Source: Heterostelium album PN500 (taxonomy: Eukaryota; Evosea; Eumycetozoa; Acytosteliales; Acytosteliaceae). From it: a DNA stretch of 64,000 nucleotides. The translations under genes and the position numbers were made by a program. Where the stretch lies: contig NW_008805089.1 of the NCBI RefSeq assembly GCF_000004825.1, positions 930,001-994,000 of the forward strand, read 5' to 3'. Of the stretch, positions 4,998-16,629 are shown piece after piece (positions within the stretch are counted from its first letter, which is position 1; the number at the start of each line of letters is the position of its first letter). The notes beneath the pieces are model-generated. The model had not been told where the DNA came from. It did no database searches and worked only from the letters and a program-made list of their open reading frames with translations.

Positions 4998-6237
4998 TTA
5001 ACTATGGAATGGTGGAACACATGTTACTTGTAAAAGAGATTTCGATTTAACACAAGATTGTTGAATTGTACCAGCATAACCAGAGTTTGGTGTAATGGAA
5101 CATCCGTTTTGTGATGACTGTGAACCTGAATTGCCAGATGCTCCTGAACCACCACTGGAATCTCCAGTACCCGATGTGAAATCACCGGTCATTTGAGATC
5201 CCTCTGGATCACCGCTTGTGAATTCACCGGTCGATAGAGTACCACCGGCAGTAGCAGAATTAACAGCTCCATTAGCAAAAGTGGCATATCTGAACTTTGC
5301 TAGATCACATTGGATCAAAGCGAATAGCACAGCGTTGACCTCTTGACTGGAACCGGTATTTGCGGATCCAGAAGTACCAGTGTTGAAACCAGAGGACAAC
5401 AAACCAGTTCCTGATTCACCGGTAATCGAAATTGAACCAACTCCATCCTTTTCAACCTCTTTATCAACAGTGATACTGTTGCTATGTTTTTGCTTGATTA
5501 CATTTGAAAATCCAGCTACATTATCGATATACTCTGAGAACAATTGAAGCTCATTGGTATGGTCAACTGGTTCGTCGAGTTCTTTTGACATTAAATATCT
5601 TGTTCCCTGTTGACCAGTCTCTGATCCTGAAGCGCTACCTCCTGAAGCGCTAGCTGAGCCTGATGAACTACCGGATCCTGATGTACTACCTGATCCTGAT
5701 GAAGCGCTGGAACCTGAACCGGATCCAGATGGATTCAAAAAGGCTCTGGTAAGTGCCATACATTTGTAGGTTGGAACCCAACGATACATTTCAAGGGTAT
5801 TGTTTGTTGTTGAATTGTTACAGGTTTCGTAGTAAGCCAAAACCAATGATCTCTCTGGGTATGCTGGTAGACTTGATGAGCATGTGTAACGTTTGGCGAA
5901 TCCCCAATGATTGGCAGTAGAGCATACACCGGATTTATAGGTTTCAACTTGGCTAGCTTGACCAGTACACTCGGCATTGGCATAAGTAGATACAATGACT
6001 TTGTAACCTGAACAAACTACTGTACTATGTTCTGAAACAGGATCCTTGTGGAACTGCAACACCACCAATACTAGAGCTATCTGGACAATTACCTTCATTA
6101 AAAGTTTCAACGGTTACCCAAGAGGTTGAGTTATTATTTGGTGTTGGAGATGGAGTTGCTGGTATTCTAATTGCGCCACAACCACTGTTAACACACAAAA
6201 TGTATACTATAATAGATAAAAATAATATATGTCTCAT
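4998..6237 (-). CDS. Secreted Cys-rich Gly/Ser-rich protein, copy 1 (one-base frameshift)
   Basis: First of three tandem minus-strand paralogues. It has a signal peptide, a Thr/Pro-rich spacer and a Cys-patterned N-terminal domain (WVTVETFNEGNC onward). This domain resembles the CfaA/B/C (former DUF3430) secreted family of dictyostelids; that family call is tentative. A Ser/Gly linker (SGSGS-type) follows, then a Cys domain ending CVPPFHS. Relative to its paralogues the frame breaks once, at the AAA run 6035-6037 (+ strand). Reading one base fewer there restores Cys-x7-Cys spacing identical to copies 2 and 3 and gives about 412 aa. No intron consensus fits. It could be a real pseudogenising indel or a homopolymer sequencing error. 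Everything else in the gene is open, which favours an error or a very recent lesion. Confidence 0.65.
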
Positions 6238-6821: not shown

Positions 6822-8480
6822 TTAAAAAATTATTAATTTATTACGAGTGGTATGGCGGTACGCAAGTTAGTGTAAATAATGTATTATCATTGTAACACTT
6901 TTCATTATTATAGCCGTCATTGTGTTGAGCTTTTTTACCTCTACATCCCATCGGTTGGCTAGAATCCCCTGATAATCCAGAACCAGATCCTGATCCTGGA
7001 AGTGCGGTCATTTCTGATCCATATGGATCTCCAGAGGTATACTCTCCAGTTGGTAGAGGTCCACCGGAAGTACCACTTGCAGAGTATCCAACACTATATG
7101 TGGAGTATGCAAATCTTGTTTGATTGCATTCGGCAATGGCAAATGTAACTGAGTTGATTTGTGGCTCTGAACCACTGGTATAGATACCGGTTCCACCTGA
7201 TCCTGTACTGAATGCTGTATTACCTGTAATAATACTGTCACCACCTGATCCAGTATTACCAGTTGCACCATCACCAGAAGCACTGTCTCCAGATCCACTG
7301 CTACTCTTGAATTTTCCAGCACTATTTAATTTATGCTCAACAGACAAACCAGTGAGATAATCGATATGATCTGAAAACATTTGAAGTTTCGATCTAGTAT
7401 CAGAGTCGTAATCATCATCCGAATTTCTTTGCGAATAAGAAGCAGAATCAGACTCTGGAATCTCGAAATCTCCTGTACCAGTATATGGATTCAATGCCCA
7501 TTTAGATATGGCAACGCAGGTATAAGTTGGAATCCAACGGTAGAATGAAAGTGTATTTCCTGATCCACATCCTTTGTAGTGTGACATTACCAAAGATTGC
7601 TCTGGATAGGCAGGTGGTGCTGATAGACATCTATAGATCTTACTGAAACCCCAAGTTCCAGTAGGACCACATTGATTGGTTGGGTAGGTAGTTGATTTGA
7701 AATGTCTATCGATACATTGTTCATCATTATACTCATTAACAATAACCTGATCACCATCGCAAACTATTGTTTTCATGTTATAACAGTCACCATTTTGAAT
7801 TACAATACCACCAACGCTTGAACTAGAATAGCATCTATCTGCATTGAAAGTATCAATTGATATCCATGATTGAGTTGGTGTTGGTGTAGGAGTGGAAGTA
7901 GGTTTTAATCTAATAGCACCACAACTGTTTATATATAGAATATTTAATAAAATAGATAAAATTATTATTTTTTTCATAGTTATAAATAAGTTATTTGTTT
8001 GTTTTTAGTTTTTTAATAAATTAAAATTAAAAAAAAGATTACTAATCGTTCATTTATAAATACAAGATATTATGAGATATAAAGGTTCCAAATTTTATTT
8101 TTTTATCATAAATCTATATAAATATCATTTTAAATATCAAGATTATATTAATTTTTTTTTAAAAATTGGGAGATTAATATCTATTGGTAATATTAAGGTT
8201 AATAATCAAACAAAATCTTATTTTGATACTTTCTAAATGGCAAAAAAGCTTCTATTCTATATGACTCCTTCCCTGAAAAGATGATCAATTTTTAGATATT
8301 TTTTGCTAAATATCGGCACCTGGTCAATCTAAATATCAAAAAAAAATAAAAAGAAAATACTGATTTTTTAGTTTAAATATCTGTTGAATAAAAAAAAAAA
8401 ATGATGGCAATGAGTGGTATCAGAAATTGAACAGTGATGTCATATTTAATTTAGTCCAATATTAAAAGAGAAAAATGATA
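6822..8480. repeat. Duplication unit A: secreted-protein copy 2 plus upstream region
   Basis: Homologous to unit B (9342-11040). The left borders share the same 19 bases (TTAAAAAATTATTAATTTA) directly after the stop codons. Coding regions are near identical. The upstream regions share ordered blocks (AGGTTCCAAATT, AATCAAACAAAATCTTA, TTTTGATACTTTCTA, CTTTCCTGAAA, TCGGCAC, TTTAAATATCTG). Both units then run into R2-derived sequence on the plus strand, so the unit seems to have been a divergent gene pair with its shared promoter. Confidence 0.75.
6841..7977 (-). CDS. Secreted Cys-rich Gly/Ser-rich protein, copy 2
   Basis: A single exon gives 378 aa. It has a signal peptide (residues 1 to about 20, ending near SCGA), a Thr-Pro spacer, and an N-terminal domain with paired cysteines (GDC, TIVC, EQC, NQCGP, YRC, KGC, TYTC) and a conserved PAYPEQSLVMSHYKGC segment. 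This pattern resembles the dictyostelid CfaA/B/C (DUF3430) secreted family. An acidic Asp/Ser stretch, a Gly/Ser linker (SGSGD, TGSGG units) and a C-terminal Cys segment ending TCVPPYHS follow. No membrane anchor or enzyme motif is visible. The role is unknown; an extracellular signalling or matrix role is inferred from family and secretion. It is nearly identical to copy 3 in its central and C-terminal parts. Confidence 0.75.
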   Translation of the reverse strand: MKKIIILSILLNILYINSCGAIRLKPTSTPTPTPTQSWISIDTFNADRCYSSSSVGGIVIQNGDCYNMKTIVCDGDQVIVNEYNDEQCIDRHFKSTTYPTNQCGPTGTWGFSKIYRCLSAPPAYPEQSLVMSHYKGCGSGNTLSFYRWIPTYTCVAISKWALNPYTGTGDFEIPESDSASYSQRNSDDDYDSDTRSKLQMFSDHIDYLTGLSVEHKLNSAGKFKSSSGSGDSASGDGATGNTGSGGDSIITGNTAFSTGSGGTGIYTSGSEPQINSVTFAIAECNQTRFAYSTYSVGYSASGTSGGPLPTGEYTSGDPYGSEMTALPGSGSGSGLSGDSSQPMGCRGKKAQHNDGYNNEKCYNDNTLFTLTCVPPYHS

Positions 8481-9040
8481 GATATGATTTCAAAGTGAAG
8501 ATGTGTATCGGTTGTATGAAAGAGTAAGGTTTGCAATCGAATATTGAATCGTAGCGATATGTCGAACTTACCTTTCAACGACTTGACTCACGATGTAAGA
8601 GATTGACAATGTAATCTCGACGATAATGAATGATACTTAATTAGCAATATTCTTGGCGCACTGTAGTATTCTAAATGAGGACATCATCACACATTTCATG
8701 TCAGAGTGCAAATTCCTGAAGTTCGTACTTTCTGTGGAGTGCAGATTCTAGGGGAATTCAATCCGAGAAATATAGGTAAGTTGCACGATGCTTTCTATTA
8801 ATATATCAATAATTAATAATACTGACAATATGATATACCTTATCATTATAAAATTAGTTTATTAATAGGTGCAGGTGTCAAGAGAAATGTGGTTGGCTAT
8901 TGAATAATTGTACGTCGTCTACTCAAAACTCATCAATAAGTTGTATTCCAAAACGATCGAATCGATCATTCGTGATGCTGTCGATTGTGTGAAGCAGTTT
9001 ATCGCTATAGATGTTGGTATGAGCGATCTAACAAATGTCA
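8477..9040 (+). pseudogene. Ribonucleotide reductase small-subunit (R2) relic
   Basis: Aligned by eye with the R2-like gene at 11684-12791. The stretch from about 8497 matches its exon 1 (MYRLYERAK region through QSEKY), the donor GTAAGT and most of the intron (ATATGATATACCTTATCATTATAAAAT) are retained, then two pieces of exon 2 follow with large deletions between them, ending near the ESIIRDAVDC region. Multiple frameshifts and in-frame stops are present. The retained intron shows that it arose by DNA duplication, not from an mRNA. It still carries a CAA (Gln) codon at the metal-ligand His position, as in the open copy. Confidence 0.8.
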
Positions 9041-9341: not shown

Positions 9342-11040
9342 TTAAAAAATTATTAATTTATTACGAGTGGTATGGCGGTACGCAAGTTAATGTAAATAAT
9401 GTATTATCATTGTAACACTTTTCATTATTATTGCCGTCATTGTGATGATTTCTTCTACCGCTACATCCCATTGGTGGGGTTGTTGTACTACCTGATCCGC
9501 TAGCTCCTGAGCCTGATCCTGATCCTGAACCTGGAAGTGCGGTCATTTCAGATCCATATGGATCTCCAGAGGTATACTCTCCAGTTGGTAGAGGTCCACC
9601 GGAAGTACCACTTGCAGAGTATCCAACACTATATGTGGAGTATGCAAATCTTGTTTGATTGCATTCGGCAATGGCAAATGTAACAGAATTGATTTGTGGA
9701 TCTGAACCACTGGTATAGATACCGGTTCCACCTGATCCTGTACTGAATGCTGTATAACCAGTAATACTGTCACCACCTGATCCAGTATTACCAGTTGCAC
9801 CATCACCAGAAGCACTATCACCAGATCCACTGCTACTCTTGAATTTTCCAGCACTATTTAATTTATGCTCAACAGACAAACCAGTGAGATAATCGATATG
9901 GTCTGAAAACATTTGAAGTTTCGATCTAGTATCAGAGTCGTAATCATCGTCTGAATTTCTTTGCGAATAAGAAGCAGAATCAGACTCTGGAATCTCGAAT
10001 GCTCCTGAACCAGTGTATGGATCCAATGCCCATCTATTTATAGCAACGCAGGTATAAGTTGGAATCCAACGGTAGAATGAAAGTGTATTTCCTGATCCAC
10101 ATCCTTTGTAGTGTGACATTACCAAAGATTGCTCTGGATAGGCAGGTGGTGCTGATAGACATCTATAGATCTTACTGAAACCCCATGCTCCTGTTGGACC
10201 ACATTGATTAATTGGATATGTAGTTGGCTTGATCTTTCTATCAGTACATTGTTTATCATTGTACTCAAATATAATGACCTTATCACCATCGCAAACTATT
10301 GTTTTCATGTTATAACAATCACCATTTTGAATTACAATACCACCAATGTTTGAACTAGAATAGCATCTATCTTGATTGAAAGTATCAATTGATACCCATG
10401 CTGCATTTGATGGAGTTGGTGTTGGTGTAGGAGTGGAAGTAGGTTTTAATCTAATAGCATCACTAGTGTTTATAAAAAGAATAAATAATAAAATAGATAT
10501 TATTTCTGTTTTCATTATTTTAAGTTATTTGTTTGTGTAATACTGTTTGTTAAAAAAAAGTAACACATCATCACTTTTATCAATCAAATATATTTTGTAT
10601 TTAGGTTCCAAATTATATTATTTTAAAATAAAACAATTATAAATATCAAGGTCTTGATATTATAATCGTTTTGTTGTTAGATATGAATTCTCTTTTGAAA
10701 AATTGTAGATTATTGATAGCATTTAAATAATCAAACAAAATCTTAACAATATTTTGATACTTTCTAATGTTTTTGAACAAAAGTCCCCCTATTCAAGATG
10801 ACACCTTTCCTGAAATCATGATTTAAATTTAGATATTAGCAAAATGATCTCGGCACTGGTGCCAATCCCATGGGATGAGAAAATAAGATATTTTCTTTAA
10901 ATATCTGTGTTGACAATAATTAAAAAAAAAACTAAAAAAAAGTTTTTTAAAAAACAATGACAAGGTATCAATTTTTTTTATTTATTCATGTTCTTCACAA
11001 TATAGGTCAAGTGATATCAATTTAGTAATTTACTTATCGC
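9342..11040. repeat. Duplication unit B: secreted-protein copy 3 plus upstream region
   Basis: Partner of unit A (6822-8480). The coding parts differ mainly in the N-terminal third and in a small Ser/Gly indel near the C-terminus. The upstream region is clearly homologous but carries many indels, then passes into an R2-derived relic on the plus strand, mirroring unit A. Confidence 0.75.
9361..10515 (-). CDS. Secreted Cys-rich Gly/Ser-rich protein, copy 3
   Basis: A single exon gives 384 aa. The architecture matches copy 2: signal peptide, STPTPTPTPS spacer, Cys-patterned CfaA/B/C-like domain, Asp/Ser stretch, SGSGD/TGSGG linker and C-terminal segment ending TCVPPYHS. Differences from copy 2 cluster in residues 45-95 and in the last linker, which here is longer (GSGSGSGASGSGS). 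The middle of the gene is almost base-for-base the same as copy 2, which points to recent duplication or gene conversion. Function is unknown; secretion and tandem amplification suggest cell-surface or matrix diversification (inference). Confidence 0.75.
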   Translation of the reverse strand: MKTEIISILLFILFINTSDAIRLKPTSTPTPTPTPSNAAWVSIDTFNQDRCYSSSNIGGIVIQNGDCYNMKTIVCDGDKVIIFEYNDKQCTDRKIKPTTYPINQCGPTGAWGFSKIYRCLSAPPAYPEQSLVMSHYKGCGSGNTLSFYRWIPTYTCVAINRWALDPYTGSGAFEIPESDSASYSQRNSDDDYDSDTRSKLQMFSDHIDYLTGLSVEHKLNSAGKFKSSSGSGDSASGDGATGNTGSGGDSITGYTAFSTGSGGTGIYTSGSDPQINSVTFAIAECNQTRFAYSTYSVGYSASGTSGGPLPTGEYTSGDPYGSEMTALPGSGSGSGSGASGSGSTTTPPMGCSGRRNHHNDGNNNEKCYNDNTLFTLTCVPPYHS

Positions 11041-11050
11041 TAACTTATCT

Positions 11051-11181
11051 TTCGGTACAATTACAACATCGTTCTGCTTTGCCTGCACTCACTACCGTAT
11101 TGGATGCCGAAACGATAGAATCGATCGTTAACGATGCTGTCGACTGTGAGAAACTTTATCGAAGAGTCACTCCGATTCGAT
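11051..11181 (+). pseudogene. Chimeric relic: DOHH fragment joined to R2 fragment
   Basis: Bases from about 11051 to 11103 match the DOHH gene at 14036-14093 (ACAATTACAACATCG, CTGCACTCAC, ACCGTATTG). From about 11100 the sequence switches without a gap to the R2 sequence found at 14430-14516 (GATGCCGAAACGAT, GAATCGATC, GATGCTGTCGA, GAGTCACTCCGATTCGA). The junction lies at the shared string TTGGATGC or close to it, so microhomology-mediated joining is plausible. The frame stays open for about 60 codons from an ATG at 11079, but no complete domain is encoded. Confidence 0.75.
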
Positions 11182-11683
11182 CACTGTCGCATCGGCTATT
11201 TTTTTGTCACTCATTGTTTCGAAAATGTAGCGGCAGTGTAGGGGAATTAAGTTGGCTTTGACATCATCATTATCTAAACTCATCTTTTACATATACATAT
11301 ATATTATCAAAAATAATCTATTTTATATCTTTGCGCAGGTTGCAATTTTAGACCAATAAGAAACAGTAAATTGCAAGATCAGTCACAAAGTTGTTTATGA
11401 GTCAAATTATACCTATTATAGGAGATTTCTATTACTTTAACAAGGTTATGGATAAAGAGATGTACACCTTTAAGCCAGAGGATGATGCGTAGTGTTCATC
11501 GAGTCAATATTGATCCTTTTGATTTATTTTTTTGTTTTTTTAATGTGAATTTATAATATTTAACATTTATTAATAATAAAGATACTTTGTGCTTACCAAA
11601 AAAAAAACAATGTCTTTTTTTAAAAAAAAACATTACTTACTATTTTTTAAAAGATTTATTGATACATTGTAATTAGCATAATT
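11182..11683. other. Intergenic region before the R2-like gene
   Basis: AT-rich with a short unexplained open frame at 11397-11492 (31 codons, ending KPEDDA). Otherwise it holds A/T runs and the presumed promoter of the R2-like gene. I see no further gene. Confidence 0.4.
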
Positions 11684-12791
11684 ATGATGCAAAATCAACA
11701 TGAAGAACCAAAATTAATAGAGATGCGTAACTATTTATTTAAAGATATCAGACGTATTTCAACCAAAAATGAAGATATGTATAGATTATATGAAAGAGCA
11801 AAGTTCAAAGTCGAACGTTGGAGATGTCATGATGATACAACGAACATCGAAGACTTGTTTCTTCTCAATGATGTAAGAGATTGGCAATGTAAGCTCGATG
11901 ATAATGAGCGTTACTTAATTAGCAATATTCTTGGTTTTTTCGTGAGCATTGCAGGTATTATAAATGAGAACATCATCACACATTTCATGTCAGAAGTGCA
12001 AATACCTGAAGCTCGTACTTTCTATAGCATGCAGATTGCTATGGAGAATATTCAATCAGAGAAATATAGGTAAGTTTCTTTATGTTTTCTGTTTAATATA
12101 ATAATAATAATACTAACTATATGATATACCTTATCATTATAAAATAAGTTTATTAATCGATGCATATATAAAAGATACAGATGAGAAATCAAAGATATTC
12201 AATGCAATCGAATCAATTCCATGTGTCAAGAGAAAATGTGAATGGCTGTTGAAATCGATGAACAATTCCAAATCACTCGCTGAGAGATTGATTGCATTTG
12301 CTGCTGTGGAAAGTATACTATACTCTGCGAGTTTCTGTGTAATACTTTGGTTCCATAAGCGTTCTTTGATGCCCAAATTGAGCGAATACTACTCTTTTAT
12401 CGTTAGCAATGAATATACTCATTGCGAGTTTGGACGTCTTCTCTACTCAAAACTAATCAACAAGTTGGATACCGAAATGATAGAATCGATCATTCGTGAT
12501 GCTGTCGATTGTGAGAAGCAGTTTATCAAAGAATCAATCCGATTCGATCATGCCGATATGAACTATCGTTTGTTGTCGCAATATATCGAGTGTTTTGCAG
12601 ACAATCTTCTCTTTTCTCTTGGTCACGAGAAGATCTACAACGCCACCAATCCATTCCACTGGCTAGATTTAAGATGCCTCGCAGCTAACTTAGTTATGCC
12701 ACCCTGCTGCTGCATTCAAATGAGTGGCAAAAAAATAGATACTAACAACAAACCACCAAAGCCAGTGTTTACCACCGATGAGGACTTTTAA
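11684..12791 (+). CDS. Ribonucleotide reductase R2-like protein lacking two metal ligands
   Basis: Two exons (11684-12069, 12149-12791) give 342 aa with clean phase. The R2 fold is unmistakable: SEVQIPEARTFYSMQIAMEN, LLIDAYIKD, NAIESIPCVKRK, RLIAFAAVES, LMPKLS and the acidic C-terminal tail ending DEDF that normally docks on the large subunit R1. Against mouse R2, the radical Tyr177 is kept (Y128), as are Glu170 (E121), Glu233 (E183), Glu267 (E217) and His270 (H220). Asp139 is replaced by Ala (A90) and His173 by Gln (Q124). The block after NPFHW is also aberrant (no KTNFFEKR). It is therefore unlikely to build a normal di-iron site alone. It may be an Rnr4-like helper subunit or a gene in early decay. 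It lies beside R2 relics. Confidence 0.85.
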
Positions 12792-13180: not shown

Positions 13181-14327
13181 ATGGAATCAGAAACAGGAGA
13201 TAGTATTTTCGCTCAACAACACAAGATAGAGGTTACACCAGAGGTTGTCAATCATTTAAAGTCAACTTTGACCGATGTCAATCAACCGATTGCCAAGAGA
13301 TTCAGATCGTTGTTTACACTGAGAAATCTAGGTGGTCGTTTATCAATAGATGCAATGTGCTCGGCTTTAAAGGATGACTCTGCATTGCTCAGACACGAGA
13401 TTGCTTATTGTCTCGGTCAGATGACTGACAGTCACGCAGTCGATCAACTCATCACAATAGTGGGTGACCAGAATGAACACCCAATGGTCAGACACGAAGC
13501 TGCAGAAGCACTCGGTGCCATCGGTGACACCACAGCATACGATACTCTCCGTCAACACGCCAACGACATCACCAGAGAAGTTGCTGAAACCTGTCAACTT
13601 GCACTCAGTAGATTAGAATGGTATACCAAAAATGAGTATGTTAGGTTTCAACCAAACTAAAAACCAATTAATAATTGATTCAGAAACCAAGCAATTCTTT
13701 GCCAAATTCTGTTGTTGTGGAGTTTGTTTATCGATCGCATTTCCTCACACAGAATATTATAATCTTGTATACTAACATCATAATCATTTTGTTGACTTTA
13801 TTTTTAGACCAGAATCAGTTGAGAATAAATCATATCTTTCGGTTGATCCTGCACCCTCTTTACCAACTACAGTACCATTTGAGGAGGTAAAGAAAGACTT
13901 TTTGAATGGCGAATTGGATATATTTAATAGATACAGAGCTTTGTTTTCGTTGAGAGATCGTGGTGATGAAGCGTCGGTACTAGCGTTGTGCGATGGCTTC
14001 AACGATGAGAGTGCATTGCTAAAGCACGAGGTTGCATTCGTTTTGGGACAATTACAACATCGTGCTGCTTTACCTGCACTCACAACCGTATTGAGAGATG
14101 CCAAAGAATCGGCTATGGTTAGACACGAGGCTGCTGAAGCACTCGGTGCTATTGCATCGACCGAGACAGTGCCATTGCTCGAAGAGTTTGTCAAAGATGC
14201 TGAGCCAATTGTCAGTGAGAGTTGTCTCATCGCATTGGATGTCACCGAATACTTTAATAACACAGAAGAGTTCCAATATGCTGATGGAATTAAAATATTA
14301 TTAGAAAAGAAAATGGAAGCAAAATAA
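13181..14327 (+). CDS. dohh: Deoxyhypusine hydroxylase (DOHH)
   Basis: DOHH hydroxylates deoxyhypusine to hypusine on translation factor eIF5A, the last step of hypusine formation, using a di-iron centre. Two exons (13181-13635, 13808-14327) give 324 aa, close to the usual 300-330. The protein is a pair of HEAT-like repeat halves. All four His-Glu iron-binding pairs are present: H72-E73, H105-E106, H225-E226 and H258-E259. The 33-residue spacing within each half matches the human enzyme. LEW at the end of the first half and YLSVDPAPS at the start of the second are family signatures. The intron lies in the linker between halves. It sits between R2-like sequences but appears intact. Confidence 0.95.
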
Positions 14328-14394
14328 AATAAAACCAAAAAAAAACTATTTATATTTTTTAAAGATCGTTTACTTTTTTAGTATTCATTGCCGA

Positions 14395-14790
14395 TTTTCA
14401 TGTCTACTCCACTCAAAACTAATCAACAAGTTGGATGCTGAAACGATTGAATCGATCATTCGTGATGCTGTCGATTGTGAGAAGCAGTTTATCAAAGAGT
14501 CACTCCGATTCGACCTTATCGAGATGAACAATCGTTTGTTGTCACAATATATCGAGTATTTTGCAGACAATCTTCTCTTTTCTCTTGGCCACGAGAATAT
14601 CTACAACGCCACCAATCCATTCCACTGGATAGAGTTAATCAACCTCCGAACCTACTTTAATCCCCTACCATGCCGCTGCAGAGAGTGACAAAAAAATAGA
14701 TACTAACAACAAACCACCGATGCGAATGTTTACCACCGATGAAGACTTTTAAAACATTTCTCTCGTTGTCATTTACTCTCAATTCAATTC
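14395..14790 (+). pseudogene. R2 3' fragment downstream of DOHH
   Basis: An open stretch (ATG at 14431 to a stop at 14686-14688) encodes the C-terminal third of R2: LDAETIESIIRDAVDCEK, EMNNRLLSQYIEYFADNLLF, NATNPFHWIELINL. It lacks the N-terminal two thirds and hence most of the metal site. The sequence after its early stop still parallels the R2-like gene, including the codons for the tail and about 45 bases of 3' flank. Where it differs from the 11684-12791 gene it is closer to ordinary R2 (IEMN, WIELINL), so it may come from a less diverged copy. Confidence 0.8.
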
Positions 14791-16629
14791 AAGTATAAAA
14801 TAGTAATAATATGTTTGGCCATAGCATTCTCTTTAACAATAAAGATTAAGTTTAATATTGAAATAATAGTTAAATAGATAGAACTAAAAAAATCTGAATC
14901 TTTTGCTTCATTTATTTATGTAAATTTAATCAAATTTTAAAACACCCATCCACTAGTAATAAACACCTATCTTAAAAAAGCACTAACAATAAACAAACGT
15001 CAAAGACAATTAGAGCTTTTTATTATTTATTACCAAGATAACTTAATTCGCTCGACTTTGTTTATCATTTACTTTGCAATCTATTGGATGGGTTATTATT
15101 GGGCAAATTTTATTACGATTAAAATAAAGTGGGGCTAAAAATCAATCAATTATTGTTTTTAAAAGAGTGCATGTTGTCATTCTACACTCGTCTTTTCTGA
15201 ATAACGAGGTGTAAAAACATGTTTTTTTTTTGATATTTAATTAAAAATGGTGTTATATTTTGTAAACAGGTTGTCAATGTGTCTTTGCTTGGTTCTTAAT
15301 TCGACAAAAAAATTTAAAAACCAAAAAAAAAACTAAAATTAAAAAAATTCCATTATAATCTTTTTAAAGATGGTGCTGTTTCAACCAATAAACACACCTC
15401 TTCATCTTATTTTGTTTAGTTTTTATCACACACACACACTAAAAAAAGTAACCAATAACAAACAAAGACATATCACTTCCTTTATATTTATTTATTTATA
15501 TTAATTTTAATTTAATTAAAAATTTTCACTTAACTATTCACTAGGAATAGTGTATTACTTTTTTATTTAATATCATACAGTAGTTAATTAAATAATTATT
15601 TCTTTTTTTATAACAAACTATAGTTAACTTTAGAATAGAATTGCTTTTTTTGTTTAACTTTTATCAAAAGATCTCGAATATAAATAAATCACTTTTAAAA
15701 ATATCAGAAGATTGAATAGAAACAGCTAAAGAACAGAAGAAAGAAGATTCTTTGTAAAAATAAAAATACAATTTTTGTTTTTAGTTTTTGAAATCGAAAC
15801 GACATTGGAACTTACAACAATAATCAAAGTTCAATTAATTAAAAAGCAAAATCAAACCAATCTAATCTTAACAAACTAAATTAATTAGAAAAAAAAAGAA
15901 TAAAAAAAGGTAATGAATATGTTACAAAAACGAAATATTGTTGTTTTCGTATTTTTTTTTTGTTTTGTTTTGTTTTGATTTTGTTGTTGTTTCATTGGTC
16001 TCTCTACACCGATTGATTACAAAAAAGTAACAGAATAACAGATAGACCATTTTCTTTAAATTAATTTTATAAATTTTTAAAATCAAAAAGAGAAACCAAC
16101 TTTTTTAAGACCACCAACACCACAATAATAATATATTATCCCAATCATTCATAGTTAATATCAACAATTCAATAACTTTATTAAAAATATGTAAAAGTGT
16201 AACTTCATTTTGGAAACCGTCTAAAATGTCATTGTAATTAACCTACCACACCACACACCAACCCCCAAAAAAGAAACCAAAATTTTAATTTTAAAAAAAA
16301 AAAAACAAAAAATTCAAAAAATATACCACCGACGGTTCCACCTTACCTTCAAATTAAACTTTGTACAAATATGGTATCACACACAGTAAGGTCATTGTAA
16401 TGCAAATAAAGGTGTTCACGCGTGAACGGTCTACTTTTAAGGTAGTATAGTTTCCACACCATTTATCAAACAGGGCTCCATCGTATTAAAGGTCTTGCCA
16501 ATCAACTGTTTCAATTGGTTAACAACAATGATGATGGATTTAACGATTTTGTGTGTGTTTCCAATTTATTAACATATTAAAATATATTGATAATTGGGAT
16601 AACCATACAAATCTATATTTATGTTATTT

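Follow-up and report, generated by a model that had tools for sequence, protein, structure and literature searches.

The R2-like gene at 11684-12791 of the window, by which we mean the whole 64,000-nucleotide stretch analysed here (C27:930001-994000 of a 32.9 Mb genome in 39 contigs), has lost metal ligands and relay residues and still holds an intact reading frame beside decaying copies of the same family. The best explanation in our view, to which we assign a probability of roughly 0.47, is a radical-incompetent accessory R2 subunit that works like yeast Rnr4, is now under slack constraint and is perhaps starting to decay. The window sequence agrees with the source assembly in 6000 of 6000 bases compared. 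Its R2-like gene is laid out as follows, using what we take to be the corresponding residue numbers of mouse R2:

11684 to 12069, plus strand: first exon of the ligand-poor R2 paralogue, which covers codons 1-128 in full and ends two bases into codon 129, defined by its open reading frame, the splice junction and a PF00268 match (E 5.7e-20)
11951 to 11953, plus strand: codon 90, GCA, Ala instead of the ligand Asp139 (alignment, codon read directly)
12053 to 12055, plus strand: codon 124, CAA, Gln instead of the ligand His173 (alignment, codon read directly)
12065 to 12067, plus strand: codon 128, TAT, Tyr177 retained (alignment, codon read directly)
12070 to 12148, plus strand: intron of 79 bp with GT at 12070 and AG at 12148, found at the same place in the neighbouring pseudogene, relic 1
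12149 to 12791, plus strand: exon 2 with the equivalents of E233, E267 and H270, N at D266, the FTTDEDF tail and the stop
12408 to 12410, plus strand: codon 216, Asn instead of the relay residue Asp266 (alignment, coordinate via the codon table)

The spliced frame comprises 342 codons for 342 amino acids, has 0 internal stops and ends with TAA at 12789-12791. Both exons match PF00268 (1.4e-34 for the exon 2 ORF), the Pfam family of the R2 small subunit of ribonucleotide reductase, and the match passes the curated cut-off, which places the product in the R2 protein family. A PDB search returned the same identity with a best E of 3.3e-69, and the R2 domain is retained along its whole length. The intron has no counterpart in the coding frames of the two canonical R2 genes of this genome (named C10 and C38 after their contigs). 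As a side observation, an intron common to the ligand-poor copy and relic 1 was either gained in their lineage or lost twice.

In an alignment that also contains C10 and C38, parts of three R2 chains from the PDB and Rnr4 of yeast, the protein keeps four of the six residues that bind the metal (D, E, H, E, E, H), namely E121, E183, E217 and H220 (E170, E233, E267 and H270), as well as the radical tyrosine typical of class Ia R2 (Tyr128). The two other class Ia ligands are replaced (D139A, H173Q), and the class Ia relay of W103, D266 and C-terminal Tyr is broken, with N at D266 and no counterpart of Y370; the W aligned at W103 sits between insertions. The exchanges of Asp139 for Ala90 and His173 for Gln124 had been proposed in the initial annotation together with the retention of E170, Y177, E233, E267, H270 and the acidic tail. 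The alignment bears out all of these assignments, and the codons GCA and CAA, read directly, confirm the two exchanges. Beyond these, we found the two relay losses, R265 changed to S and F237 in the tyrosine pocket changed to Y. The acidic tail FTTDEDF with its C-terminal F is present, and the stretch upstream of it is hardly alignable.

Such losses have a low base rate among the viral R2s sampled: the eleven key positions (six ligands, Tyr, W103, F237, D266, Y370) are kept in 80 of 80 sequences, the best 80 out of 157 relatives that two peptide patterns retrieved, although the conservation of E170 is not independent in this sample as that residue falls within one of the patterns. Excerpts of PMC3824934 likewise describe eight residues as equal over five R2 clades with few exceptions, including the equivalents of His173 and the relay Asp266, and the Asp ligand as Asp in all three class Ia clades. 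A preferential loss of catalytic residues in the ligand-poor copy is unsupported, since 5 of 12 catalytic invariant positions were lost compared to 34 of 102 other invariants (p 0.54), with identical counts for Rnr4.

Because two ligands, the relay Asp and the C-terminal relay Tyr are gone, the product should, judging by these residues, be unable to assemble a six-ligand diiron site or to pass on a radical. From the R2 mechanism as we understand it, Tyr128 should take no part in radical transfer either, because D266, H173 and the C-terminal Tyr are missing. The kept radical tyrosine stressed in the initial annotation is therefore present but carries little meaning, and Rnr4 has the same Tyr.

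It had also been suggested to search for a canonical R2 elsewhere in the genome, and two complete genes were found. PF00268 has five matches in total, the complete genes C38 and C10 and three in the window cluster (exon 1, exon 2 and relic 3, a 3' fragment). In contrast to the ligand-poor copy, both complete genes have all ligands and relay residues, an intronless coding frame and an omega of 0.033. Together with the one R1 match detected in the genome, they could be partners of the ligand-poor protein. Over the alignment, its identity amounts to 54% with C10 and 51% with C38, and the N-termini are similar. The tail (TTDEDF) is of the C38 type (VLDEDF), sharing DEDF, whereas C10 ends in NTNADF, an odd tail for a canonical R2 (L007:1152-2120). 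In a seven-sequence tree, the ligand-poor copy pairs with C10 (support 0.937) and Rnr4 with Rnr2 (0.987), while C38 falls outside C10 and the ligand-poor copy with a support of only 0.615 for the separating split, so that the deep order is not settled. The closest relative is the C10 R2 gene. The tree speaks against an Rnr4 orthologue, and a viral or horizontal origin was rejected as well, since the most similar of the 80 retained viral R2s reaches 52% identity compared to 58% for C10, which the tree joins to our gene.

Three relics of the R2 family lie within 6.5 kb:

8477 to 9040, plus strand: relic 1, an R2 pseudogene that, relative to the ligand-poor copy, has three TGA codons in frame, a large deletion and 12 small indels in its coding part; intron at 8776-8857
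11050 to 11180, plus strand: relic 2, a chimaera of a piece like the HEAT-repeat gene of the window (11050-11102) and an R2 piece (11100-11180)
14382 to 14796, plus strand: relic 3, a 3' R2 fragment with frameshifts, the tail and 3' flank

The outer limits of relic 1 (8477 and 9040) are those of the initial annotation. Its TGA codons stand at 46, 67 and 76, 11 of its 12 small coding indels shift the frame, and its intron aligns to that of the ligand-poor copy with 69 matches, 9 mismatches and 1 gap base (69 of 78 aligned bases equal). Relic 3 equals the ligand-poor copy in 42 of 43 aligned bases past the stop. The duplicated unit consists of a CfaA-like gene on the minus strand and an R2-like gene on the plus strand, seemingly at 6841-9040 and 9361-12791, and the CfaA-like pair has a dS of 0.158 and an omega of 0.42. 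At the place of H173, relic 1 reads Gln (CAA, 8759-8761), as had been noted before. Because relic 1 and the ligand-poor copy both have Gln at codon 124, the loss of His173 is, by the codons, older than the tandem duplication, in agreement with the earlier claim. The loss of Asp139 very probably predates the duplication too, because relic 1 reads GTA (Val) where the canonical genes read GAC and the ligand-poor copy GCA, a dating that depends on the alignment around a one-base gap.

If the ligand-poor copy had been neutral since its split from relic 1, 11-20 frameshifts would be expected in it, yet there are 0. The neutral rate was taken from the frame-shifting indels of relic 1 (11 in 418 aligned bases), and the branch lengths, between 0.043 and 0.079 per site, came from a custom codon model, the upper one being about half of the dS between the two CfaA-like genes. 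With the indel count as observed, the frame would survive by chance with a P of 1.8e-5 to 2.2e-9. Nine settings, which combine the branch lengths with the Poisson limits of the indel count (5.5 and 19.7), give 5.5-36 expected frameshifts and P values from 4.3e-3 to 3e-16, below 0.005 in 9 of 9 cases. In-frame stops are absent as well (0 compared to 2.9-5.4 expected under neutrality). This is in line with an independent clock, as the dS of 0.158 for the CfaA-like pair agrees with 0.16 per site for the ligand-poor copy and relic 1 in the codon model, presuming that both pairs stem from duplication of the same unit, which their order and spacing suggest. Since no frameshift occurred while the adjoining relic 1 took 11 and three stops, the frame was probably under selection for most of the period that followed the loss of the metal site.

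In contrast, amino-acid constraint on the ligand-poor copy is weak. The codon model gave an omega of 0.033 for the canonical pair, 0.40 for the stem and 0.75 for the branch of the ligand-poor copy, with deep values saturated as the C38 branch reached its bound. Omega of the ligand-poor copy lies above the canonical value (lnL -3383.27 vs -3387.40) and is indistinguishable from 1 (-3383.32); that of the stem is likewise above canonical (lnL -3396.42) and indistinguishable from 1 (-3384.28). The dN/dS check proposed in the initial annotation thus came out as a dying copy predicts, yet the frame is intact. We used the topology that joins the ligand-poor copy and relic 1, which is best by 3.2 lnL units over the orders with relic 3; under the other tree orders of these three sequences, omega of the ligand-poor copy is 0.64. 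Branch times fixed at 0.16, 0.237 and 0.32 per codon resulted in omegas of 1.09, 0.64 and 0.41, of which only 0.41 rejects 1, and fixing them from the CfaA-like pair gave 0.64 (lnL -3384.13 vs -3385.40). Positive selection on this branch was discarded, as the omegas of 7.7 and 20 (relic omegas free) accompany near-zero branch lengths.

The kind of changes gives a mixed picture. The ligand-poor copy differs at 69 of the 204 positions where C10 and C38 agree. Of 114 positions that do not vary among five R2s it has kept 75, compared to 60 of 86 common to C10 and C38 only (p 0.65), whereas a comparable, non-identical test shows Rnr4 to favour the invariant ones (75/114 vs 27/58, p 0.02). Hydrophobic positions changed in 23 of 77 cases, close to the 24-25 of a neutral simulation, but 19 of these 23 are still hydrophobic, more than simulated with either of two base compositions (P 0.03 and 0.005). 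The mean BLOSUM62 score of the changes is -0.19 compared to simulated -0.55 and -0.53 (P 0.035 and 0.065). The 21 of 69 changes that also occur in a relic are mild (mean BLOSUM +0.38) and those classed as special to the ligand-poor copy are harsh (n=8, mean -0.88), with permutation p values of 0.053 against the shared changes and 0.13 against all others; for one of the eight, at codon 225, relic 1 has Arg too, and 40 of the 69 changes are unassignable. Recent changes spread flatly over the codon positions (3, 2, 3 relative to relic 1 and 6, 7, 8 relative to relic 3). We read these tests together as a long phase in which the fold was kept, followed by slack.

The initial annotation had posed the choice between an Rnr4-like subunit and a dying lineage, and the evidence divides over it: the intact frame beside a relic supports the former and an omega indistinguishable from 1 the latter. 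A dying lineage would mean a pseudogene only beginning to decay, or neutral drift with the frame kept by chance, like the surrounding relics, and we consider this a real possibility, albeit one that falls short of even odds. It would explain an omega indistinguishable from 1 (even when the CfaA-like pair sets the branch times), the flat codon positions together with the harsh recent changes, the crowd of relics of the same family nearby and the fact that invariant residues were lost as often as the rest. Against it, survival of the frame by chance is improbable even at the most lenient of the nine settings (P 4.3e-3) and far more so at the observed indel count, though the frame test leaves room for a very recent death, by our estimate within about the last fifth of the time since the split.

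The retained tail next to a stretch that hardly aligns, together with the fast change of the gene, would also suit a different job, either as a decoy or inhibitor of R1 that uses only tail and fold, or as an R2-like fold for a task outside ribonucleotide reductase; besides, two canonical R2s with complete key residues may make a helper superfluous. A decoy acting through its tail alone could do without the R2 domain, yet the domain is kept at full length, and we regard this reading as unlikely. It is very improbable that the lost ligands are an error of sequencing or assembly, which would have to have put the Gln codon into relic 1 as well, along with a codon for something other than Asp at the other place, and would leave the differences at 69 of 204 agreed positions unexplained.

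Among known systems, Rnr4 (beta-prime; PDB 1jk0_B and 1sms) is the nearest in kind: an R2 paralogue alongside a canonical R2, with a non-His at H173, F237 changed, the radical Tyr kept and an acidic tail ending in F. Our gene resembles it as a paralogue that, by its residues, would be unable to build the cofactor and has canonical R2s alongside. However, Rnr4 has Arg for E267 and Tyr for H270, while its D139, D266 and C-terminal Tyr are intact, the reverse of the ligand-poor copy at these five positions. The precedent named in the initial annotation fits in its residue pattern at H173 and Tyr but not at these five, and the tree indicates a separate origin. Class Ie R2s are metal-free bacterial proteins with replaced carboxylate ligands. 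They share with the ligand-poor copy an R2 without full metal site, but it keeps E170, E233 and E267 and loses His and Asp, so that we rejected this assignment. Among the matches listed in the literature, no title or start of an abstract names a ligand-poor dictyostelid R2.

The apicomplexan R2_e2 (PfR4), which we compared by its published description only, is likewise a second, fast-evolving R2 with intact frame and R1-binding tail and, as in our protein, the C-terminal Tyr is missing (excerpts of PMC3824934). The same excerpts call R2_e2 likely unable to make a radical, describe it as exclusive to Apicomplexa and report that the P. falciparum protein interacts with PfR2 and R1. It keeps the His and the relay Asp, with few exceptions, and the Asp ligand, all three of which the ligand-poor copy lost; according to a figure legend, R2_e2 is distinct at two further ligand positions, H_15 and H_24, and the radical Tyr, present in our protein, occurs in R2_e2 only in Plasmodium (PMC3824934, in part). 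On the evidence here, the ligand-poor copy may work like Rnr4 and R2_e2 but belongs to neither group, with R2_e2 judged by its description.

Under the preferred reading, an accessory subunit of the Rnr4 kind, the gene, a once-spliced R2-derived paralogue closest to the C10 R2, would have been kept in frame by selection after the ligand and relay losses, as frame retention beside rotting copies suggests. The protein would fold as an R2 and form a beta-beta-prime heterodimer with a canonical R2, as Rnr4 does with Rnr2 (PMC4245953, in the part available), or alternatively dock to R1 through the intact FTTDEDF tail. In this way it may stabilise or tune the enzyme without producing a radical, as yeast Rnr4. 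Amino-acid constraint would by now be slack, and the gene may be at the start of decay.

A second R2 regarded as unable to make the radical is described for yeast and apicomplexans (PMC3824934, in excerpts). We tentatively put forward, as a possibility rather than an expectation, that Amoebozoa evolved a radical-incompetent beta-prime independently of both and by their own route, selected as a structural partner while other copies died. On this route the Asp, a His ligand and the relay Asp are lost, but the radical tyrosine, the Glu ligands and the tail for R1 are retained. If true, this third origin, with losses dated against a tandem duplication, would show that R2s readily become inactive partners, and would make it possible to ask which residues of R2 have a purely structural role. 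If the copy is dying, it would be an ordinary pseudogene, yet one that displays the order of decay.

Further observations concern the surroundings. The CfaA-like genes on the minus strand, 6841-7977 and 9361-10515, are 88-96% alike over five repeat blocks; the second one, the sole copy run against Pfam, matches the family CfaA_B_C, which along with the low GC suits a dictyostelid, and an ORF at 4998-6110 resembles them by eye. A HEAT-repeat gene at 13181-14327, presumably a deoxyhypusine hydroxylase, consists of two ORFs with repeated His-Glu motifs, the first of which was run against Pfam. The HEAT-like part of relic 2 resembles 14041-14093 of this gene, and its join to the R2 piece is a short shared word.
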